64,000 bases of DNA from Pachyseris speciosa. Its lineage: Eukaryota; Cnidaria; Anthozoa; Scleractinia; Pachyseridae. Below, piece by piece: positions 7,015-64,000 of this stretch. The stretch spans positions 1,879,501 to 1,943,500 of the forward strand of contig JAEMWC010000035.1 in NCBI GenBank assembly GCA_016490735.1, read 5' to 3'. A program made the position numbers and the translations under genes. The notes below the pieces were generated by a model. It was not told the DNA's origin. It ran no database searches and worked only from the letters and a program-made list of their open reading frames with translations. Position 1 is the stretch's first letter; each line of letters begins with the position of its first letter.

Positions 7015-7260
7015 GTTTTGTCCCACACCAAAACGTTATTTTCGTGTTTTCCAACGAAATCTGAAGAGTGACAGCGTTATCAAAAATTTAACCTCTATAT
7101 TCGTCATGAGCAGAGATTTCTTTTAAAAGTAAATTTGAAAACTGTACCCAAGCTATGACTTAAGAAGTTCTCAGCAGAGAGCGGCACATACAACAATCGC
7201 GCTGACAAAAATAGTAAAGCCCGGCGCATGATAGTCGATGATAGTTAAAGAGCCCTGAAC

Positions 7261-7740
7261 CATCAACTACCATCAACTACCATCAACTATCATCAACTAC
7301 CATCAACTACCATCAACTACCATCAACTACCCATCAACTATCATCAACTACCATCAACTACCATCAACTACCATCAACTATCAACTATCATCAACTACCA
7401 TCAACTACCATCAACTACCATCAACTACCATCAACTATCATCAACTACCATCAACTACCATCAACTACCATCAACTATCATCAACTACCATCAACTACCA
7501 TCAACTACCATCAACTACCATCAACTACCATCAACTACCATCAACTATCATCAACTACCATCAACTACCATCAACTACCATCAACTATCATCAACTACCA
7601 TCAACTACCATCAACTATCATCAACTACCATCAACTACCATCAACTACCATCAACTATCATCAACTACCATCAACTACCATCAACTACCATCAACTACCA
7701 TCAACTATCATCAACTACCATCAACTATCATCAACTATCA
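7261..7740 (+). repeat. Tandem array of the 10-bp unit catcaactaY, about 48 copies
   Basis: The unit catcaactac alternates with catcaactat; nearly all variation is C/T at the tenth position, with one or two short slips (about 7330 and 7380). The unit is a variant of the tcgactatcat motif in the element's ends, so the array probably grew from the terminal sequence. Confidence 0.95.
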
Positions 7741-8342
7741 TGGGCGTGGTCATGCGGCGCGAAGGAGGTCATGATATTCGACGATAGTTTACTCGAACTG
7801 GATGGTTTCCTGGAACTCGTGCGAGCAAGCTCGCGTGTCCTTCACGTAAGTCTCAAGCGCCTGGCTCCTGTCGCGTGAAAATGGCATCACAAAACTTCCT
7901 AACATGGTATGAATTTTTGACGGCGCAAGAGGGCTGCAGCCTGCTTCGTTGCCCTGGAATTTTTGGAAGAATTAACGGAAGATGAAGCTGGAGAGCGTAG
8001 GTGGAAGAGTTGACAGACGAGGAAATTTCCCTCTTTTCCGCTTATGCGTTCCTTTGCATTTCTGATTTGTTCGGCTGTTTCCTGTTTGTCAGTCTGATTT
8101 GCGACTGACATTTAAAAAGATATTTAAACAACAACCGTATTACAACATTGCGAACAAAAAAAACACTTCGTGTTCTCATGCTTAGGCCGCAATGCTATTG
8201 AGAACGACTTACGCTTTGTCTATCAATCTTCGCTTTGCCAATAACCACCTGAGCCCGTCGATTTTGGGCGAAAACAGCTGACCGTAAAACTGTCATCAAC
8301 TGTCATGCGCGTGGTCAAACGATAGCGCGAGTTTCAGCTATC
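7741..8342. other. Interior of the satellite-bearing element
   Basis: Non-coding sequence between the array and the right terminal repeat. Isolated array-like words (gtcatcaactgtcatg at about 8291) recur near the right end. A minus-strand open frame at 7899-8111 has no recognisable features. Confidence 0.4.
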
Positions 8343-12141: not shown

Positions 12142-15100
12142 ATGGAAGGCTTAAAGGATCTTATAACTCCGACCCGCTTTAGTTTATTTGGCTATACCGT
12201 GGTATTGCTCTTTCTTTCGACAGGAGTCATATTTGTAGGAATTATAAGCAAGCTGCGAGTCAGTGAAAGAAGGAAGTTTGTTTGCGATTTCAGAGACGGT
12301 TTATCTGCTAAGAGCTTCCATCAAGCGCAGTGTTTCGGTGAGTACGAACAACAACATAATTCTCCGGTACCGCTTTACGGCTTTGTTCTTTTGAGTTTTG
12401 CGTCTGTGCTGATCGTATGCCTCGTTTACTCTTGGTGCTGGGTGAAATCCCGCGTGGACAAAATCGAAGCAGCCATGACACCAGACGTTGAAAACCCTCG
12501 CCCGAGGCCAAGAATAAGATCTCGGCGAATTTTCTGTTTTTATTTTCTTCATCTGACAGCACGGCTTGCGCTTGGAGTAGCATTCACGATTATCCAGAAT
12601 CTTGTTTTCTACCCTTCCGGCTTTCCTGTGAAGTTCTTTTGTGTTTTGCCGGAAACACAAAGATCAAATGTTACGAATTACAAAGAAACTCGTGCTCCAT
12701 GTCACAATCCTGTCGCCGCTGAAAAGAATACTTTTGCAGCAGCTGCATGGCTGGTGCACGCTATTTTTACATTTCTTGTATTTGGCGAGATACTATATCT
12801 TTCAACACGAGCAGCACAAAATGTTGACTTCTCCATCGACTCGGAATTTTGTGTGAAATATTTCTTCCACCAAAGCGCGGCTTCTGTGTTGCCGGCAAGA
12901 TTCAGGGAGCGCATGAAAAAACGTATATTGGAACAAACAGAGTTACTGGAGCCATTGCTCCACGGCAATGGAGGGAACGAGGAAGGCAGAATGCGCTTAG
13001 ATGACATTTTTCTGGATGTAATTATTCATACTGGAAGGGCACAGGAACAGTTTTTGAAGGACTGCCAAAGACACCTGATATATGACTTTTATCTGAAGCC
13101 TCAAAGCCAACGTGGGTCAATTACGATAAATGCGCGCACTGAGTTGTTTCTTTCTAACTTAGACGCTGAAAATCCTCGAAAAATTCTGGTCGTTGGTCGC
13201 CCCGGGATTGGAAAGTCTTTGCTGTGCCAAAGACTGTTGCGTGACTGGAGTAAAACGGAGGTCTTTGGCAACAATGGTAAGCGATTTAAGTACGCCTTCT
13301 TATTCCAATTTCGATCTCTGTACTTGGAATCAGCAGAAAGGATTTCTCTGCGCCAACTGTTGAGTCGAGCCGCACATCTCGAGGGCGACCTCGATGATCA
13401 CGTTTTTCAAGAACTGCTAGACCACCCCGAGAAAGTACTGCTCATCTTTGATGGCTTGGATGAATTCAAGGACCACCAAAGGTGCACTATAAATGAAGCG
13501 TCTCGATTCGGGAACAGCTCGACAGAGCCAGTTGCGGTCTCGGCTCTGTACGTGAAATTACTGCAGGGCAATCTGCTGCCTGGAGCCACCGTCATGACCA
13601 CGAGTCGACCGACTGTGCTGGGAAGCGTTGACATCTCTTCGTTTGACCGAACTGTGGAAATAGTGGGATTCACGGAAGAGAAGGTTCAAAAATACGTGAA
13701 CAACTACTGCAGACAAGATCAAGAGCACAGTACAGCAACAAGCATATGGGAGCACATCAGAAGCAATTTGAGCCTGTTGTCTCTGTGCTATATCCCCGTG
13801 AATTGTCGCATATTTTGTTTCTTTCTCAAGGAGCTAATTAAGATGAAAACACCAGCGACCTGCCAAGTAAGCACAACCTTGCCAACAAGGCTAACAGACA
13901 TTTACCAGGGAGTACTAAGACTGCTCATCTTTAAACATCACCCTGAATATCGAGACAAACCGTTTCGTGGAAACGAACGATTTTCAGAATCGGTTGAACA
14001 GGATTTGAGTAATCTCGGCGCTTTAGCAAGGAAAGGAATCTCTGAAAGGAGAATGATATTCGACTCTGAGGAAGTTGGTGAAATGAAAAATTGCGGCTTG
14101 CTTCACCAAATGCCCGACAATAGAGTTTCTCCAGTTGAGTTCAAGCAATGTTTCTGCTTCGTTCACTTAACATTGCAAGAGTTTCTCGCTGCGAGAGAAA
14201 TCGTAAAGATGGACCCCGACAAACTAAATGAGTTTATCGTTTCTAACGCCGAAGACCCAAAGTGGTACTTGGTTATTCAGTTCGTTGCCGGCTTGCTTCA
14301 TGGCCAGCAAAGTAAAGCAATCAACAGTCTGGTCGATCGCCTGCAGCGCTCGTTGTTGATCCAAACCAACGCAAAGATGGCTTTGCTCATGATGAAGTGT
14401 TTATATGAATATAACGATGACACCACAGTGAAGAGAGCGGCATCCGAGCTACAGGCGAACGAAAGCTTTCAAAAGAAAATTCGTCTGTGGAACTGTCAAG
14501 CCACCCCTGTTGACTGCACGGCAATGGTGTATTTCTTAAAGCACCTCAAATCGGTGGAATACAAACTTGATCTCACTGATAATTTAATAGCGGAAGGCGG
14601 ATGCAAAGAGCTTGCCAAACTGCTGAAAGAGGGAGGACCGGTAACATTACACATTCCAGACAACAGCATCCCTGATCAGGGCATAGTTTCAATCACAGAG
14701 GCAATGAGCTCGGACAAATGTAAACTCAAGACCCTAAACATTATTTTGAACGACTTAATAAGTCCGGCAGCTTTTCTACATCTTTGTGAAGTGCTCAAAA
14801 ACAAAAACTGCAAACTGATTTGCTTGCGATTCGGAGGATATCAGGAAACTGACCAGCTGTTATGGCTACAGTTGTGCGAATCGCTAGAACATGTGAACTG
14901 CAAACTGACTTGTTTGAGGCTTTTCAGCGAGGAAGCAGCGATTGATCCTGTTTTCCTGCGTTTGTGCGAAACACTCAAACACCCAAATTGTCAATTAACC
15001 TGCTTGAGAATTTACTGTCACAAAATGACCAACCAAGGTGTAAAATACATCTGTGAAGCATTGAAGAATCAGCATTGTAAACTCACTTATTTGGATCTTA

Positions 15101-15285
15101 TCAGTAACCGCATTACTGCTGCTATAGTGCCTCACCTTTTTGAAGCGATACGGCACGAGAACTGTAAACTGGGCAGAGTAACTATTACGTCTTGGAATAT
15201 CACTGACCAAGTCAATTTAGAGCTACAAAAGGCAACTGAAGAAAAGCAGCGAGGATGCCTCACTCATTCCATTGGGATAAGATAA
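12142..15285 (+). CDS. Four-pass membrane NACHT-LRR (NLR-like) protein, single exon, 1047 aa
   Basis: One uninterrupted reading frame from ATG to TAA. Residues 15-37, 78-101, 131-157 and 199-220 are hydrophobic and predict four membrane passes. Loop 1 has C48 and C64; loop 2 has C167 and C187 plus an N-glycosylation site (NVT, 176). This topology, with two cysteine-bearing outer loops, is that of large-pore channels (connexin, pannexin/innexin, LRRC8, CALHM); no family match is proven. A NACHT NTPase follows: Walker A GRPGIGKS (352-359), Walker B VLLIFDGLDEF (432-442), sensor TTSRP (486-490). The NLR signature 'HLTLQEFLAA' is near residue 675. Ribonuclease-inhibitor-type leucine-rich repeats run from about 800 to 1030, with recurring 'NCKLTCLRL'. 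NLR proteins oligomerise on ligand sensing; here that platform would sit on the cytosolic face of a membrane. No death-fold domain is present. There is no sign of decay. Confidence 0.93.
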   Translation: MEGLKDLITPTRFSLFGYTVVLLFLSTGVIFVGIISKLRVSERRKFVCDFRDGLSAKSFHQAQCFGEYEQQHNSPVPLYGFVLLSFASVLIVCLVYSWCWVKSRVDKIEAAMTPDVENPRPRPRIRSRRIFCFYFLHLTARLALGVAFTIIQNLVFYPSGFPVKFFCVLPETQRSNVTNYKETRAPCHNPVAAEKNTFAAAAWLVHAIFTFLVFGEILYLSTRAAQNVDFSIDSEFCVKYFFHQSAASVLPARFRERMKKRILEQTELLEPLLHGNGGNEEGRMRLDDIFLDVIIHTGRAQEQFLKDCQRHLIYDFYLKPQSQRGSITINARTELFLSNLDAENPRKILVVGRPGIGKSLLCQRLLRDWSKTEVFGNNGKRFKYAFLFQFRSLYLESAERISLRQLLSRAAHLEGDLDDHVFQELLDHPEKVLLIFDGLDEFKDHQRCTINEASRFGNSSTEPVAVSALYVKLLQGNLLPGATVMTTSRPTVLGSVDISSFDRTVEIVGFTEEKVQKYVNNYCRQDQEHSTATSIWEHIRSNLSLLSLCYIPVNCRIFCFFLKELIKMKTPATCQVSTTLPTRLTDIYQGVLRLLIFKHHPEYRDKPFRGNERFSESVEQDLSNLGALARKGISERRMIFDSEEVGEMKNCGLLHQMPDNRVSPVEFKQCFCFVHLTLQEFLAAREIVKMDPDKLNEFIVSNAEDPKWYLVIQFVAGLLHGQQSKAINSLVDRLQRSLLIQTNAKMALLMMKCLYEYNDDTTVKRAASELQANESFQKKIRLWNCQATPVDCTAMVYFLKHLKSVEYKLDLTDNLIAEGGCKELAKLLKEGGPVTLHIPDNSIPDQGIVSITEAMSSDKCKLKTLNIILNDLISPAAFLHLCEVLKNKNCKLICLRFGGYQETDQLLWLQLCESLEHVNCKLTCLRLFSEEAAIDPVFLRLCETLKHPNCQLTCLRIYCHKMTNQGVKYICEALKNQHCKLTYLDLISNRITAAIVPHLFEAIRHENCKLGRVTITSWNITDQVNLELQKATEEKQRGCLTHSIGIR

Positions 15286-16550: not shown

Positions 16551-16997
16551 AAGAACAACTATAACCACGACTTTGTTAGACGTAACACTTACAGGAAAGA
16601 ACCAAACGCTACGAACGCTAACCCGACACCAGTCACTATAGCGACTATACCATACATCAAAGGAACTTCTGAAACCATCACACGGATACTTCAACCTTAC
16701 AATATCCGTGTTGCTCACAGACCCATCACAACTTTACGACAACTATTGACGAACGTTAAGGACAAAGACGAGCCAAAGGACAGACAGGGAACAGTTTACA
16801 AGATCGAATGCTGCGACTGTCAGGCCAATTATATCGGTGAGGCTGGCAGAAATTTGAAGGTAAGACTGACTGAACACAAACGAGCTACGAGAAATGGTGA
16901 CATCAACAATAACATTGCTGAGCACCATTTACTGACAAATCACACAATCGACTGGAACTCTGCTAAATGCATTACCTACTGTACTAACTACCACTAA
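16551..16997 (+). pseudogene. Penelope-like retroelement, C-terminal GIY-YIG endonuclease part
   Basis: The translation contains 'NVKDKDEPKDRQGTVYKI', then 'CCDCQANYIGEAGRNLKVRL', 'TEHKRATRNGD' and 'IAEHHLLTNHTIDW'. This is the GIY-YIG nuclease of Penelope-like elements: YKI/YIGE core, arginine and EH residues, and the CCDC zinc-like knuckle. The frame extends upstream of the first ATG to about 16551 and lacks the reverse transcriptase. It ends at TAA 16995-16997, where the family usually reads glutamine; the frame then continues recognisably ('ALESSITNFEH'), so the stop is a nonsense mutation. A hammerhead ribozyme follows 220 bases downstream on the same strand. Confidence 0.85.
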
Positions 16998-22904: not shown

Positions 22905-23655
22905 ACCATTTCACTAATTATTAGCAAAATGGTGTATTGGGAACAGTTTGTGAAGGCTGTGTTGGGGGATGGTGGTAACCTCGTCAAAGAGTCTGGCCGC
23001 AATTGCTTCTCTTCTTTTAAACAGGGTTGTAATTCGGCCTGACGGGTCAAGAGCTCTGCTGTACGATAGATCGGGATATATGATCCTCAGTGCGCTTTTT
23101 TGCAGCCTCTTCAAGTCTTCGCTAAGGTATCCCGGGAGAGCACGATGGAATACTGGAGAAGCATATTCCTGATATACAGAATGAAACGGATACCAGTGAC
23201 ATAAAACAGCGTCAGCTCCTTTGGCGCGATTAGGGATCTTCTTAAAAGTTGCCTCACGAAATACAATCTTGAGGAGGCCTTCCTAACGAGTTCCGATATA
23301 CGTACATTCCATTTTAGGTCACTACCGATGTTTAGACCAAGTACTTTAACATAATTCACTGACTCTAGGGGCTTGCCATTTACTAATATTGGGGCAAAGT
23401 CCGGCTTGTTCTGTGCAAAACTGCTCCTTAACTCCTTACACTTCTCAGAGCTGGATTGTCTGAGGAGAGAGTCCACTAGACGCTGCATGTCGCTTACTTG
23501 ACCCTTTTCTGTAACTTCTGAGATGGTAGTATCGTCTACGTACTTCCACACGTCAACTGGTGTGTTTTGGGGATAAAACGTATTAGAGATCGAGGTTTTT
23601 CTCGCAGCTTTGGTCACGTCATATAAGGCGATATTGGCTTCTTTGCTATCAGCTA
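22905..23655 (-). pseudogene. CR1/L2-like LINE reverse transcriptase, C-terminal part
   Basis: The minus strand reads 'VWKYVDDTTISEVTEKGQ' (the YVDD polymerase motif), 'CKELRSSFAQNKPDF', 'VKVLGLNIGSDLKWNVRISE' and 'ASSRLYFVRQLLRRS'. After a frame change near 23111 it continues 'LKRLQKSALRIIYPDLSY' and 'RREAIAARLFDEV'. This is the palm-to-thumb region and tail of a non-LTR reverse transcriptase. The 5' end is truncated at about 23655, as is usual for LINE copies. Confidence 0.85.
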
Positions 23656-24629
23656 AAAAGGGGCGATGGAGAGAAAGGACTATTTACCATATTTTTTTTT
23701 CTGTTGATGTTATTCCTGCACTTATAGAAATATTCGATCGCCTGTGAGTACAAAAAGTGAAATAAATGAAACTTTTCCCTTCTGGAACGTTTTTTCTTAA
23801 AATGAAAAGAAAGAAAAGAAAGATAAACTTGCGTCAACGAGATTGTTCGTACATAGATATTACAATGCCTACCCGCACTATAAGTCGATATTTCTTTCTT
23901 AGCGCATGCGCTTATTGTATGATGTGCCTCACTGAATTGCGCAGTAGGCATGCGCACAAATAATGGCGCGAACGTCCTTTCACTGGAACCAAAAAGTGTC
24001 TGTTCTTTCCTGAAAAGTCTCGGAATAATTCTGCTTCCAGTCCCCGCTTTTACAATAACCATCTCCCAGCGGGTTTTACAGAAATTACTAGTACAAACAG
24101 GTGAATTTTTCCTCAAGATTTAGGAGACAAGGGTGGCAAGACGATCGTAGAAAATCATAGGTTAAGTTATGACAAAACCTCCGAAAATAAAAGATGACTG
24201 AAACAGCGCTATCGACAATCGAATTTTCTAGGCAACCTATACCTTCCCGAACAGATATTTCACCGAATACTTTCGTTGGGTGCCCCTGACAAAACGAGTA
24301 GAGATGATTGTTATTCATATCCAGTCGAGATAAAAAAACAAATTTCATTCCTGAACAAAAGTAACAACGATTAAACCAAAATATTAAGCTTCAATTTAAT
24401 TGATCACATCTGTTGTAGAGGTTGGTACCACTTGAAAGTACGAATGTGCCAATTCATTTTAGGATGACCTACTTAAGGCCTTATAAGGTAGATGCCAGGG
24501 GTAGATGCATAAACAGAACGTGACTAAGTTGGGATCACGAAAATTACATTTGCCCAAAAGTGACTAAGATGGGGTCTATAATTGGTCACAGAATACACTA
24601 TAACAAGTTAAATACAAATGTTTCATTTT
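23656..24629. other. Non-coding, with one dispersed repeat word
   Basis: The piece 24247-24291 (ccgaacagatatttcacc...gttgggtgcccc) matches the right end of the element at 6716-7014. Paired gcgcatgcgc/gcatgcgc words occur at 23902 and 23948. No gene is recognised. Confidence 0.4.
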
Positions 24630-28854: not shown

Positions 28855-29115
28855 GTTTTAAGTTGAGAGTCGGTAGCAATTCTGGTTTGCTTTGGTTTGG
28901 AATTACTCATTTCGCTTTGTGATTGGCCAGGAAAACTCATACCACTTTCTCAACCAATGAGAAGCAAAACCAAAACCAAGCAAGATTCTGCACCTGGCGC
29001 TGGTTACTTGTAGTTACTTCGAATTCTTATTGACTTATTATGCAGTTTGTTTCCGCCGTGATTGGCCAGAGAAATTACTTTAGTTTTTGGGTTTACGACA
29101 TTCGACGAAATAAAA
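28855..29115. mobile_element. MITE of the 'TTCAATTGAGTGTCG' family, copy 4
   Basis: The ends ttttaagttgagagtcgg and tacgacattcgacgaaat are diverged family termini; internal gattggccag (twice) and ccaatgagaagcaaaacc blocks match the other copies. It ends about 20 bases before the GPCR start codon. Confidence 0.7.
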
Positions 29116-29134
29116 CGCGCTTTGTTCTGCAGTA

Positions 29135-29591
29135 ATGGCTGAAAATGAAAGCAGTTATCAAGAGCGATGTGGCCACCCTTTATGGATACCAGTCCCAACT
29201 AAGGACAGTGTCTCTTTTGTGAGTGACATTATTTTGTGCCTTATCATCGCACCGTCCAGCATCTTTGGATTTCTTGGCAACCTTGCTGTGATCATTACAG
29301 TTATCAAGACTCCATCCCTTCAACGACCGTGCAATATTCTTCTGTGCAGTATGGCCATTGCAAATTGTCTGACCAGTTTGGTTGCAATGCCGCTGTTTAT
29401 TTGCTGGCGTCTGCTGGTTCACCACATTTATGACTCCTGTAACGATGCTCAGGCCAAGTTGTTTGAAGTGTTTTGGTTTTCCCAATATACTCTTATCGGA
29501 TGGTCAATGTTCAACTTAATCCTTATTAGCTACGATCGCCATTTCGCGGTTTCTAACCCTCTGGAATACCGTGCGAAAGTAACAAAAAAAG
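29135..29591 (+). CDS. GPCR exon 1 (N-terminus to intracellular loop 2)
   Basis: ATG at 29135; the donor ggtatga begins at 29592. It encodes TM1-TM3 and the DRH motif. The sequence ttctgcag just before the ATG could be an acceptor, so an untranslated first exon is possible. Confidence 0.85.
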
Positions 29592-31142
29592 GTATGATGA
29601 TGATTTCATCTCATTACTGTATTCATTAGATATATTGATTATCGTCCTTGTAAACGTTTTGTCAGTCAAGCTTGATCAGAAGGGTATAGGTGATTTATTT
29701 GATGAAGCTATCGTTTCCACAAGAAAAGGAGAGCACAACCGTGATTTAAGTAAACCAAATAAGGAGAGTAACGAGGCTGTGCGTACAAAAACCTTGAGAG
29801 GTCTTCTACAGTGAAGAGCGTATTCCATCTTAGCACGGAAAACAGGTGTTTCATCCCTTTTTCCATAACGTGGACAAAATTTGAGCTAAAATGCCAGTTG
29901 TTTCAAGCGTTTTGGTTATCTGAATGTGCTTTTTGGGATGTGGAATGCACAATATACTCCTTATTAGCCTCGATCGCCATTTCGCGGTTTCTAGCCCTCT
30001 GGAATACTGTGTAAAAGTAACAAATAAAGGCATGGTAGTTATTTCAACTCATTGGTGTATTAATTTATATAGGTTATTGTTGTCTTTTGAACGCTTTGGT
30101 AGGCCTAGCTTGAAGAAGGGCACAATTGCCTTATTTGGTAAAGCAGGAGATGGGTTCCTGGATAAAGTTAGTTTTGCCACCACCATCAACTCCATCACCA
30201 CCACAATTAGAATCACAGCAACCACCACCACCACCACCACCACCACCACCATTATCATCATCACCATCACCATCACCATCACCATCACCATCACCATCAC
30301 CATCACCATCATCATCATCACCACCACCACCACCATCATCATTGTCATCACCACCATCACCATCACCATCGCCATCAGCAACACCACAACCACCACCATC
30401 ATCATCATCATCATCATCATTATCATCATCATCACCACCATCACCATCATCACCAACACCACCATCACCATCACCATCAGCACCACCACCATCGTCATGG
30501 TTATCATCACCATCACCATCATCATCATCATCATTATCATCATCATCATCATCATCATTATCATCATCATTATCGTCATCATCACCATCAGCACCACCAC
30601 CATCGTCATGGCTATCGTCCTCATTAACATTACCAAGATCTTATTGTTATTATAACTGATTTTGTTGTTTTCTCCCGACAGGTGCTTTTCTGGCGGCCAC
30701 TGCTACTGGAACAACATATTTGGCGTTGGTGACATTGTTGCGACTGATTTTGCGTAGCACGGTTGTAGATTTTTACATAAGCATAGTTTTAGGGGTGGTA
30801 ATGATTTCTCTTCCAATCGTGAACCATGTTCGAATCTTAATTGTTATTCGTCGCAGTAACAACCAAATACACCATGCAGTTTCAGAGCAGAGCGTATCTG
30901 CCCTTTATAGGAGGGAAAGAAAAGTGGCAAAGGACATGTTTATAGTCATAGCAGTGCTAATGATTTGTCTTGCTCCTGCGGTAACGTTAACTATTATGAA
31001 TAGGTTTTATTTTCTCGGCAATTATGAAGTCCTGTTTGCTTGGTCTAATGCCTGTACGTATATAAATTCTTTTATAAATCCTGTTATTTATCTTGTTCGG
31101 AATCAAGAAATTCGAAGCGCTGTCAAAACCTTGCTGTGTTGA
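29135..31142 (+). CDS. Class A (rhodopsin-like) G protein-coupled receptor, 305 aa, two exons (join 29135..29591, 30682..31142)
   Basis: The two exons join at a phase-1 intron to a complete seven-pass protein. TM1 holds 'GFLGNLAVI' (the conserved GN), TM2 'LLCSMAIANCLTSL', TM3 ends in 'LISYDRHFAVSNPLEY', TM6 has 'CLAP' and TM7 'NSFINPVIYLV' (NPxxY). The tail after TM7 is short and ends in 'TLLC'. Two deviations stand out: the TM2 aspartate (2.50) is asparagine, and DRY is DRH. Such receptors couple extracellular ligands to heterotrimeric G proteins; the ligand is unknown, and the overall look is of the cnidarian-expanded orphan class A receptors. A potential N-glycosylation site (NES) lies at residues 4-6. 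The intron holds a decayed copy of the exon-1 end and a long trinucleotide repeat. A MITE abuts the 5' side. Confidence 0.88.
29885..30044 (+). pseudogene. Decayed tandem copy of the 3' part of GPCR exon 1
   Basis: This stretch repeats about 29445-29605 at a distance of 438 bases, including cgatcgccatttcgcggttt and the 'PLEY' region. One base is missing relative to exon 1 upstream of DRH, which shifts the frame, and the donor GT has become GC (aaaggcatgg). It cannot replace exon 1 as it stands. Confidence 0.8.
30175..30622 (+). repeat. Compound (CAC)n/(CAT)n microsatellite
   Basis: About 440 bases of caccatcac and catcatcat trinucleotides inside the GPCR intron, with a repeated larger unit (accatcgtcatgg at about 30488 and 30599). 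All frames are open on both strands as a consequence. Confidence 0.95.
30682..31142 (+). CDS. GPCR exon 2 (TM4 to C-terminus)
   Basis: The acceptor is tctcccgacag (ending 30681); the stop is TGA 31140-31142. It encodes TM4-TM7 and the short tail. Confidence 0.87.
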
Positions 31143-32967: not shown

Positions 32968-33185
32968 GATTGAAATGAAGAAATGATCCTTGCAGTTGTG
33001 AACGCAATTTAAGCAATTGCCAAAAGAAGCCTGAAAAACATTCAGGACTTCAACGGGGTTTGAACCCGTGACCTCACGATACCTGTGCGATGCTCTACCA
33101 ACTGAGCAATGAAGTCACTGATGTTGGGAGCGCGTCAATTATGAGTTCATATGTTCCCATGAAAGAGAAGAGTGTGAATGATGTA
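32968..33185 (-). repeat. tRNA-derived composite repeat, copy 1
   Basis: The minus strand at 33116-33046 folds as a tRNA: gacttca acceptor, gctcagttggtagagc D-arm, cgggttcaaaccccg T-arm. The anticodon arm is mismatched, and position 33 is A. The family's flanks (gcagttgtgaacgcaattt and tcaattatgagttcatatg) occur with every copy, so this is a repeat and not a working tRNA gene. The best copy would read as threonine (GGT). Confidence 0.75.
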
Positions 33186-58619: not shown

Positions 58620-59190
58620 AATAAATCAATCCAAATCTAAAATGCTATGGCTTGGCTGCTGACGACATAGAAGAGACAGAATTCTAAATCTCCAAATTAG
58701 AAACGATACAAACTATACGCTGAGCTCTAGGTACGAATTTATATTACGATCACGAGACTTCAGTTAAGAAAAACGTTTTCGATAAACTAACGAAATTAAA
58801 GAAAACCTTGAATGTTTGGTCTCAAAGGGACATTTCTGCCTATAGTAGAATAAGTATCGTAAAAATATTAGCCCTTTCAAAGCTTAGTTTTATCTGCAGC
58901 ACTACGGAAACGCCGGCAAACTTTGCTGAGCAGGTAAATAATGTTATATTGGACTTCCAATGGAATCACAAACCAGCTAAAATTAAAAAGTCTACACTGA
59001 TTAAATCCAAAAATGAAGGAGGATTAGGAATGAAAGATTTTATTATTTTCAACAATGTGCTGGGAAGACATTGTGCTTGGATCACGAAGCCCCATGGGAA
59101 TATATTCCAATCTCCGTTTCTCCTTGCAAACGTCGGGGGTGCACTTATCTTTAGTTGTAACTACGATTATAAACTTCTCTGCTTAAAGTG
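58620..59190 (+). pseudogene. L1/Tx1-like LINE, right part (thumb and C-terminus)
   Basis: The plus strand reads 'GLEINQSKSKMLWLG' (motif D), then 'YEFILRSRDFS', 'LNVWSQRDISAYSRISIVKI', 'FQWNHKPAKIKKSTLI', 'GGLGMKDFIIFNNVL' and 'CAWI'. In L1-like proteins this directly follows YADD plus about 25 residues, which is where the left part stops at 54375. Confidence 0.8.
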
Positions 59191-59406
59191 CCTATGAAAT
59201 AAAAAACAAGTTTGGTTTATATGTTTGTTTGTGTCGTTATTAAACCAAAAACCCGGTTTGAAACGCCCGAAACCCTCTCCATGTAAGATTTTTCTGGCCT
59301 GAAAGTTTGCATTTGACCGATTTCGAGTGTCTCCATCTTGCGCTCGGTCAAACACTCAGATTACACCGGAAATGACGTACTTGGTGGTTCCACAGACATC
59401 AGCTTC

Positions 59407-60560: not shown

Positions 60561-60590
60561 AGATGAAGTGAGATGGAAGATACATATTAA

Positions 60591-60623
60591 CCCTTTCCCG
60601 CCCGTGAGTGTCAATTGGCACTC

Positions 60624-60681
<58 letters not shown>

Positions 60682-60692
60682 GCAGGAAAGGG
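60591..60692. mobile_element. 102-bp piggyBac-type MITE, copy 1
   Basis: The ends ccctttcccgccc and gggcaggaaaggg are inverted, and TTAA flanks both sides (60587-60590, 60693-60696). An inner palindrome (gagtgtcaattggcactc) follows the left end. TTAA target plus CCCTTT ends fit the piggyBac superfamily. Confidence 0.8.
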
Positions 60693-60724
60693 TTAACATC
60701 ATCAAAAACTATGTCCCCATTTAA

Positions 60725-60750
60725 CCCTTTCCCGCCCGTGAGTGCCAATT

Positions 60751-60815
<65 letters not shown>

Positions 60816-60826
60816 GCAGGAAAGGG
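60725..60826. mobile_element. 102-bp piggyBac-type MITE, copy 2
   Basis: Same length and nearly the same sequence as the copy 32 bases upstream, with its own TTAA on each side (60721-60724, 60827-60830). Only two or so bases differ, both in or beside the inner palindrome (gagtgccaattggcactt). Confidence 0.8.
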
Positions 60827-60849
60827 TTAAAGATAGATCAGTCTGATTT

Positions 60850-62090: not shown

Positions 62091-63354
62091 ATTACGTTGA
62101 TCTGTGTAAATGGATGTAATTTGTTAATGTAATTGTCTTCATTGTCAGCCGTTTCCATAATAACTAAAAAATAATTATTATGGTAGGTAATTGCATTATT
62201 GTAAGTTGCGAATATTAAGCATTGTTTTGCAACTGGTGTGAGTACTTATTGTAAGTAGCTTATGTAATGCAAGTTCTGTATTGTTAATTTAAAAATATCA
62301 CCCAAAAATTCACAAAATATCCCACATGAAGTACCAGTTTGTCCTGTTCATTGCCAGGCTGCCGTATTGGCGAGCCGCAGACGTGAAAGCGACCGAAAGT
62401 TACCTTAAGCACGTGCGCTTACGCCCACTTTAAAATGGAAAACAGATTGACTGAATCCAGGATAAGCGATAACATAGGATGTGATACCTTTACCGCAATC
62501 AACGCTTAAATTTCCTCGGAAAAAAAGGAAAAGAGATTCTGTATGGTTACTTAAACCTAGACAACCGCACAAATTAGAAGCAAATCCCGGATTTTTTCTT
62601 TTTTTCGAGAGGCATTGAAAACCGTTCTCCACTAATGCGTCACAAACATGTGGGCGATGTTTCTTTTTTCTGCTCTTCTTAAGCGTTTTTTGGTTTCTTC
62701 GCCTGTTTGTTTGTTTGTTTGTTTGTTTGCTCTCGATCAGGACAGTAACGTGTCACAGGAAAGACAGAAATGCTGCAGCTCGCACTCATGCCGATAGAGC
62801 GTGGTTTTGAGTACGAGTGCTACATAATCTTAAAACTCACGATCGTAAGGAATTCCTGGGTAATATAAAAAAACGTACTAGAGGTTACACATTGTAAGCA
62901 CAATGCTGTGAGCGGATGGTAGGGAGTAAAACCGTAAAACATCATAGAAACAGTAAATGTACTTACAGGTTTTGATAACTTTACTAACAAATTCATTTAT
63001 TGGTTCAGGTATAAAGGATGGCATAATATTATTAAGAAAAGGATGATATTGTTGATTGTTGATTGATATTGTTGTAAGCTCTTTGTGACTGTAAATAAAA
63101 AAAAAGGAAAACAACAGTTTTCTAGATGTTTTTAAAGTTTTTATTTAGTTGTAAAACCCGGCTAAACAATTACGGGTCATAGCTATAATGCTACCTAGTT
63201 TGTCAAGTGTCTATCAAGCGCTGTAATCATTTCCTTCACGCTTTCTGGTTCATGATCTTCGCCTTATTTGTCCTTGTTCGTTTATTTATCTCGGCGCAAA
63301 ATCACTCCAGTGAAGTGTTGAATTTAACGGGTTCGTAATTCCAGTTACGTCGGT
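62091..63354. other. No gene recognised
   Basis: Includes a (GTTT)n run (62704-62728). Otherwise no feature is supported. Confidence 0.4.
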
Positions 63355-64000
63355 AATTCCCTTCTCTGGATCTACAGGCCCTGATAATATACCTCCAAAA
63401 CTTTTAAAGCTAGCGGGTGACGCGATAATCTCGTCAATCTCCAGCCTATTGCGACTTTTCATCAAGAACAGGAGTGTGTTTGCTAGCTGGAAAACTGAGA
63501 GGCTTACTCCAGTATATAAAAAGGACGACGAAACAGATTGCAGTAATCATAGACCGATAGCATTGCTAAGCGTCCCAAGTAAGATCCTCGAATCAGTAGT
63601 CAACGACACAATTGTTCGTCATGTCTATAAAGACAGTGATCTGGTCTCGGACAAACAATGGGCATACCGTGCAGGATATTCAACAGAACTGTTACTAACA
63701 CACCTTACCGAAACGTACCTTACCGAAAGCTGTAGATGCAGGCTTAGTGGTAGCAGCTGCCTTCGTAGATTTTAAAAAGGCTTTCGACAGTGTGTCTCAT
63801 GACATTCTTGAAATGAAACTGGAAAGGGACTTTGGCATAACAGGACCACTCCTATATTGGCTTAAAAGTTACCTTAAAAGAAAGACAGCAAAATACAATT
63901 GTTAATGGACCAACTTCAGAGATGTTACCGGCCTCTTCTGGAATCCCTCAAGGGTCCGTCCTGGGATCGACACTTTTCGCTCTTTTCACGAGCGATCTCC
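63355..64000 (+). pseudogene. CR1-like LINE reverse transcriptase, runs off the window
   Basis: The plus strand reads 'GSTGPDNIPPKLLKLAGDAI', 'SWKTERLTPVYKKDDETDCS', 'NHRPIALLSVPSKILESVV' and 'DKQWAYRAGYSTELLLTHLT', then in another frame 'AFVDFKKAFDSVSHDIL' (motif A) and 'LKSYLKRKT', and finally 'SGIPQGSVLGSTLFALF'. The order and motifs are those of a CR1/L2-like reverse transcriptase; at least two frame changes disable it. Confidence 0.85.

Follow-up and report, generated by a model that had tools for sequence, protein, structure and literature searches.

Can a receptor that joins a NACHT domain to leucine-rich repeats (LRRs), an NLR, carry a membrane channel within its own chain? The question is raised by a locus in the coral Pachyseris speciosa, in a stretch of 64,000 nucleotides (contig JAEMWC010000035.1, positions 1,879,501 to 1,943,500) that is called the window here. 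One reading frame in it encodes a protein that starts with a four-pass membrane domain and continues into NACHT and LRRs. On balance it seems probable that the four-pass part, the likely effector of this NACHT-LRR receptor-type protein, functions as a large-pore channel whose opening the receptor controls.

The frame (12142-15285, plus strand) is single and unbroken, with 1047 residues between an ATG start and a TAA stop and zero internal stops. The position of the start codon is supported because 29 of the 40 aligned family members start at exactly the same methionine. An earlier description made from the letters of the DNA (the sequence-only reading) had claimed four hydrophobic segments within the first ~220 residues, loop cysteines C48/C64 and C167/C187, and NACHT motifs (GRPGIGKS, DGLDEF) and LRRs in the same exon. 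All three claims hold. The segments lie at residues 12-41, 74-102, 130-151 and 196-222; the cysteines of residues 1-240 are 48, 64, 93, 99, 132, 167, 187 and 237, and the four named ones are kept across the family; and one 1047-codon frame contains everything. The union of four-pass domain, NACHT and LRRs in one frame is confirmed.

The NACHT domain is recognized by Pfam (PF05729, E 2.4e-30, residues 347-525) with intact Walker A and Walker B motifs, GRPGIGKS beginning at residue 352 and DGLDEF at 437. The window protein also matches PF17779 (E 0.029) and PF17776 (E 5.2e-4), both under the cut-off. Its own LRR_6 match is weak (E 0.1), and 39 of the 40 aligned members have an LRR_6 match at E up to 1. 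With phmmer the region matches the LRRs of NLRP1 and ribonuclease inhibitor chains, and the full-length AlphaFold2 model (predicted local distance difference test, pLDDT, 80.5; predicted template modelling score 0.67) contains nine strand-helix units at residues 779-1042. In fold comparison with VIA, the match to NOD2 spans residue 245 to the C-terminal end, and NLRP3 is matched too. The protein has the Walker-bearing NACHT domain and the C-terminal LRRs of an NLR, and in front of them a conserved N-terminal domain, a putative effector. For this N-terminal domain NCBIfam and PADLOC give no match; on the whole protein, PADLOC gives a weak P-loop match (mad8, E 0.036). Hydrophobic segments beyond residue 240 number none in 21 of the 40, one in 17 (543-562 in the window protein) and two in 2, and are read as the buried core of the soluble part.

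The sequence-only reading had proposed a profile-type search for further fusions of this sort, and they were found. A search with residues 1-300 gives 47 relatives of 898-1336 residues, every one with NACHT. Because this search accepts proteins 0.55-1.75 times as long as the query, short ones without NACHT fall outside it. A profile of the N-terminal domain gives 78 shorter proteins, many of which are probably exon pieces. Relatives with a species name come from the stony corals Oculina patagonica (three) and Desmophyllum pertusum (one) and from the octocoral Paramuricea clavata (one).

The alignment of 40 members consists of the window protein and 39 of the 47 long relatives. C48, C64, C167 and C187 are invariant in it and are kept in 46 of the 47. 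The eight relatives outside the alignment are P0013, P0021, P0025, P0029, P0034, P0035, P0037 and P0039; seven keep all four loop cysteines. The exception, P0021, has the four-pass domain in part: its first loop is missing, and with it the first two loop cysteines. Across 126 sequences (125 relatives and the window protein), 94 have all four; the other 32, most of them short pieces, are gapped at at least one position. Hydrophobic segments in the 40 members number four in 23, five in 14, three in 2 and six in 1, at a cut-off that splits neighbouring segments in some (P0002, P0046) and at which P0024 is without transmembrane helix 1 (TM1).

Distances in the four-pass part and in NACHT-HD2 correlate with r 0.96, a value reached by none of 2000 permutations; therefore both parts have travelled together. 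The sequences behind this r include five octocoral-like members (one, P0047, with a species name) that are deeply separated from the main group; identity between the two groups is 35% for the four-pass part and 37% for NACHT-HD2.

Chance or a reading-frame artefact was rejected as a source of the arrangement, given NACHT behind the domain in all 47 long relatives and the correlated distances.

A further family, PF27087, which is more recent than the Pfam copy scanned here, stands in the precomputed Pfam lists of 41 of the 47 full-length relatives. Since it is absent from all 78 N-domain matches, its place is probably beyond the four-pass domain.

Relation of the four-pass domain to connexins

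The four-pass domain is very probably homologous to connexins. In a Pfam scan of ten N-terminal domains that covers every listed family, Connexin is the leading family in nine. No match among the ten is to an innexin/pannexin family, to CALHM, or to the LRRC8/pannexin-like membrane family, of which Pfam contains a model. A profile of the domain (A3) finds connexins in the PDB with a best E of 2.7e-4, and its 30 PDB matches include no innexin or pannexin chain. Profile-profile comparison (hhalign) with connexins gives E 2.1e-6; none of 256 shuffles reaches the score, and none is above 27.5. The similarity thus goes beyond composition. The connexin alignment used here (A5) contains 17 of the 120 listed among 2270 connexins found, and their names assign almost all of them to the beta group. 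In loop 1, E42, F46, C48 and C64 align with E47, F51, C53 and C64 of Cx26; Y134 and R141 of TM3 align with Y136 and R143; and E216-x2-Y219-L220 of TM4 aligns with E209-x2-Y212-L213.

Structure prediction points the same way. The AlphaFold2 model of the domain (pLDDT 85.7) has the predicted four-helix fold with two outer loops of connexins, and it also fits the four-pass large-pore fold of LRRC8. Connexins make up 49 of the best 50 Foldseek matches (best E 2.8e-6), with a pannexin at rank 43. The best fold matches are Cx43, Cx36 and Cx26; the best sequence match is Cx31.3/GJC3. CALHM is not among the Foldseek and VIA matches listed, and no exclusion is taken from that. The sequence-only reading had judged the domain more connexin-like than innexin-like, and the Pfam, PDB profile, hhalign and fold results all agree. 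It had also proposed a fold search against the large-pore channels. This returned a connexin-type fold with connexins first in Foldseek, and a tie with LRRC8 in VIA.

In the predicted topology both ends and the NACHT-LRR part would be cytosolic and the cysteine loops outside. The model further predicts disulfides C48-C187 and C64-C167 between the two loops. The cytosolic loop (region 102-128) has a family mean of 26.6 K+R per 100 residues. An N-x-S/T glycosylation sequon occurs in loop 2 of all 40 aligned members, in loop 1 of one and in the cytosolic loop of one. At 3.3 per 100 residues, loop 2 has roughly sevenfold the sequon density of the soluble parts that follow. Elsewhere sequons occur in 19 of 40 members in residues 223-340, in 36 in residues 341-770 (background density) and in 7 in the TM4 region. 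The predicted topology is supported because sequons concentrate in loop 2, which the sequence predicts to be glycosylated.

Several results qualify the relation to connexins. The window domain scores 19.6 bits against PF00029 (E 8.5e-4) and does not reach the curated cut-off of 31.3; as a single sequence it matches nothing in the PDB at E up to 10. A wider profile, A4, built from 47 sequences (the window, 36 of the 78 N-domain matches and 10 of the 47 full-length matches), does worse than A3, with Cx31.3 as best PDB match at E 0.016 and 13 rhodopsins beside 13 connexins among its 26 matches. This weaker result with rhodopsins therefore allows no easy homology claim. For the hhalign comparison, the rival families are covered by the Pfam and PDB searches. 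In VIA, at most 1 Z unit separates LRRC8 (15.8, root-mean-square deviation 2.8 over 211) from connexin, and LRRC8 has more residues aligned. Judged from the E-x3-F-x-C motif, the N-terminus falls about five residues short of that of Cx26. Finally, connexin loops have three cysteines each, in the patterns CX6CX3C and CX4-5CX5C (also visible in the connexin alignment), and the outer loops of the window protein have two.

Two scopes bear on these searches. Of the 90 families in the Pfam scan of A4, the 25 that occur most often are covered, so that a rival channel family matched by one or two members could escape it. PF00029 appears in the precomputed lists of 24 of the 125 relatives (4 of 47 and 20 of 78), under a newer Pfam version with its own threshold; P0051, one of the 24, scores 24.0 in the present scan, which is below the cut-off.

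Extra cysteines were counted by alignment columns in 75 of 76 sequences; P0073, whose last loop cysteine is unaligned, was omitted. Only P0033 and P0040 have three cysteines in both loops, and the middle cysteine pair of connexins is missing from the rest of the family. An extra cysteine occurs in loop 1 only in P0052 and in loop 2 only in P0002. The gap between the loop 2 cysteines ranges from 8 to 32 residues; in 71 of the 75 it is longer than in Cx26 (10 residues). Because two defining features of connexins were not found, the domain is called connexin-related and not a connexin.

The third cysteines of P0033 and P0040 (C-x4-C-x3-C, C-x2-C...C) lie near the connexin pattern. They hint at a compensated gain or an ancestral state, and at no more than a hint because both sequences may come from one lineage.

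A probable receptor-opened pore and its alternatives

The most likely form of the channel is a sensor-gated, undocked connexin-type pore, with activity, ring size and gating all inferred. Subunits would form a ring in the membrane, which the ADP-bound NACHT-LRR part would keep shut at rest. When the LRRs meet a trigger in the cytosol, nucleotide exchange would follow and the NACHT domains would assemble. The ring would then open as an undocked hemichannel through which Ca2+ or other ions enter or ATP leaves, and this flux would be the alarm or death signal. It would parallel the plant resistosome channel in a single protein whose pore is already in place when activation begins. Connexin rings are six-fold. 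By the titles of PDB entries, a pentameric Cx40.1 hemichannel exists (8gn8), NLRC4 is 11-fold, and NLRP3 forms a hexamer, octamer, decamer and dodecamer. The channel-type effector that the sequence-only reading considered possible is largely supported by the predicted connexin-type fold.

The four-pass domain could instead be a membrane anchor or receptor module that places the NACHT-LRR sensor at the membrane, where it would signal via other partners; its loops would perhaps sense something outside. Some NLRs do act at membranes, the pore is deduced rather than observed, and conservation is lower in loop 2 (all-pairs identity 44%) than in loop 1 (53%) or the whole domain (52%), as it could be in a ligand-facing loop. 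However, an anchor needs neither connexin-type cysteine pairs nor an invariant TM3 arginine and TM4 glutamate, and one would not expect it to preserve the spacing of connexins across two coral lineages. This explanation is regarded as unlikely. More doubtful is a pore akin to LRRC8 or pannexin that acquired its connexin-like loop motifs by convergence; the connexin likeness would then be an analogy and the receptor-gated mechanism unchanged. The near tie in VIA speaks for it, as do the two cysteines per loop, the number in innexins and pannexins, and LRRC8 likewise joins a four-pass channel to C-terminal LRRs. It is opposed by the collinear connexin motif match that shuffles do not reach, by the lack of an innexin or pannexin/LRRC8 match in the Pfam lists of the ten domains, and by the absence of innexin, pannexin and LRRC8 chains from the 30 PDB profile matches.

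Very improbable is a true gap junction, in which rings on adjacent cells dock with each other and coupling between coral cells is under receptor control, for instance to seal off an infected cell. Connexins are gap-junction proteins, and the coral loops retain much of their cysteine frame. Yet the length of the loops varies widely, as the loop 2 cysteine gap of 8 to 32 residues illustrates, and every aligned member has a loop 2 sequon. According to parts of PMC8769644, extracellular glycosylation impedes docking in pannexins, and the argument is applied to innexins as well. By the same argument, undocked channels are favoured for the coral protein and gap junctions disfavoured.

The locus and its surroundings

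The features of the frame are collected in Table 1.

Table 1. Parts of the receptor frame, with positions in the window
Feature	Position	Strand	Evidence
Whole frame, connexin-like four-pass domain + NACHT + LRR, 1047 residues	12142..15285	+	
Connexin-like four-pass domain, residues 1-240	12142..12861	+	Pfam Connexin E 8.5e-4, PDB profile matches, hhalign, AlphaFold2 model, Foldseek
Short N-terminal helix, residues 2-7	12145..12162	+	AlphaFold2 secondary structure; low confidence, mean pLDDT 60 for residues 1-10
Transmembrane helix 1, residues 15-40	12184..12261	+	hydrophobicity, AlphaFold2
Outer loop 1, residues 41-77, E42-x3-F46-x-C48 and C64	12262..12372	+	invariant columns
Cys48	12283..12285	+	
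Cys64	12331..12333	+	
Transmembrane helix 2, residues 78-102	12373..12447	+	hydrophobicity, AlphaFold2
Basic cytosolic loop, residues 103-128, ENPRPRPRIRSRR	12448..12525	+	family K+R content
Transmembrane helix 3, residues 129-153, Y134 and R141	12526..12600	+	both residues invariant, 40/40
Outer loop 2, residues 154-190, two-stranded, C167 and C187	12601..12711	+	AlphaFold2 strands 164-170, 182-188
Cys167	12640..12642	+	
N-glycosylation sequon N176-V-T, outer loop 2	12667..12675	+	sequence
Cys187, then x6-E194-K195 as in connexins	12700..12702	+	
Transmembrane helix 4, residues 191-222, E216-x2-Y219-L220	12712..12807	+	hydrophobicity, AlphaFold2, alignment
Linker and pre-NACHT region, residues 223-340	12808..13161	+	from ~245 aligns with pre-NACHT part of NOD2, NLRP3 (VIA); low pLDDT in parts
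NACHT domain, residues 341-525	13162..13716	+	PF05729 E 2.4e-30
Walker A GRPGIGKS, 352-359	13195..13218	+	
Walker B DGLDEF, 437-442	13450..13467	+	
Winged-helix and helical domains, residues 526-770	13717..14451	+	weak PF17779, PF17776; NOD2/NLRP3 fold matches
Leucine-rich repeats, ribonuclease-inhibitor type, residues 771-1040	14452..15261	+	phmmer, Pfam over family, model

Elsewhere in the window, 29114-29626 and 30660-31139 (both plus) encode pieces of a rhodopsin-type G-protein-coupled receptor (7tm_1, E 9.1e-17 and 9.2e-9) that match the first and second half of the model. Between them lie a long ACCATC repeat and a stretch in which the middle part seems to occur a second time. This looks like either an intron-containing receptor gene or a tandem pair that has been disrupted. 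The ACC/ACCATC repeat of about 380 bases (30221-30604) opens long frames on both strands.

Repeats are found at other sites too. A minisatellite at 7259-7741 has a 10-base unit in 48.5 copies with 94% matches and is open in three plus-strand frames, with an INYHQLPSTT-like translation. At 60587-60830, 1.8 copies of a 134-base unit with 98% identity have the inverted ends CCCTTTCCCGCCC and GGGCAGGAAAGGG and are perhaps a small transposable element. Frames at 23114-23683 (minus), 58724-59194 (plus) and 63314-63772 (plus) resemble pieces of retroelements without long terminal repeats (non-LTR). The frame at 23114 matches ALKBH8_N (E 8.3e-7), a domain often found in non-LTR retroelement frames; that at 63314 matches reverse transcriptase weakly, below the cut-off (E 0.002), and that at 58724-59194 matches no Pfam family. 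The reading frame at 16746-16997 (plus), TVYKIECCDCQANYIGEAGRNLKVRLTEHKRA, resembles part of the GIY-YIG endonuclease of a Penelope-like element; it has no Pfam match up to E 0.01. A tRNA-Thr gene with anticodon GGT lies at 33045-33116 (minus).

Comparison with known systems

According to parts of PMC8769644, connexins arose de novo, and BLAST finds no connexin-like proteins in non-chordates, with the exception of a single sea urchin transcript that lacks confirmation. The occurrence of a connexin-related domain in two lineages of corals would provide an outside relative for connexins and make their origin testable. One tentative scenario is that the connexin module predates the cnidarian-chordate split and was kept in corals as the sensor-gated pore of an immune receptor. 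This would be an animal resistosome, in which an intracellular danger signal directly opens a connexin-type hemichannel, and gap-junction connexins would be descendants or sisters of an alarm channel. In 15 cnidarians, 35 Pfam domains are combined with NACHT (PMC8260672), and NACHT architectures were surveyed in five corals (PMC10236652); the word 'connexin' is absent from the main text of both papers as far as available. A search of full-text literature by title and start of abstract, with subscription journals mostly outside its scope, found no description of connexin-like NLRs or cnidarian connexins among the papers listed.

The domain shares with connexins the predicted four-pass fold, the motifs E-x3-F-x-C, C-x6-EK, Y-x6-R in TM3 and E-x2-YL in TM4, and the order and matching of the loop cysteines. 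It differs in its low identity (13-20%), the two instead of three cysteines per loop, the N-terminus shorter by about five residues, a loop 2 that is longer in most members and has a glycosylation site, the NACHT-LRR fusion, and its occurrence outside chordates. With NOD2, NLRP3, NLRP1 and NLRC4 the protein shares NACHT with Walker A/B, winged-helix and helical domains, and ribonuclease-inhibitor-type LRRs; in place of their CARD or PYD it has a membrane channel-type domain. Unlike in LRRC8 volume-regulated anion channels, to which no sequence match was found, the coral LRRs match those of NLRs and ribonuclease inhibitors, and LRRC8 is not known to contain NACHT.

In plant resistosomes, soluble helices insert into the membrane only after activation, whereas the coral membrane domain is a ready-made channel-type fold. 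No homology is known between the plant effector and the coral four-pass domain. What the coral protein would share with the plant coiled-coil (CC) NLR resistosomes (ZAR1; wheat, parts of PMC9581773) is a receptor and a membrane channel in one protein, with a calcium channel as the output, putatively so in the coral. In mammals, as parts of PMC10536814 and of other papers describe, a Cx43 hemichannel and NLRP3 likewise belong to one inflammatory pathway. There they are separate proteins, with the hemichannel upstream of the NLR, whereas in the coral both parts belong to one chain.

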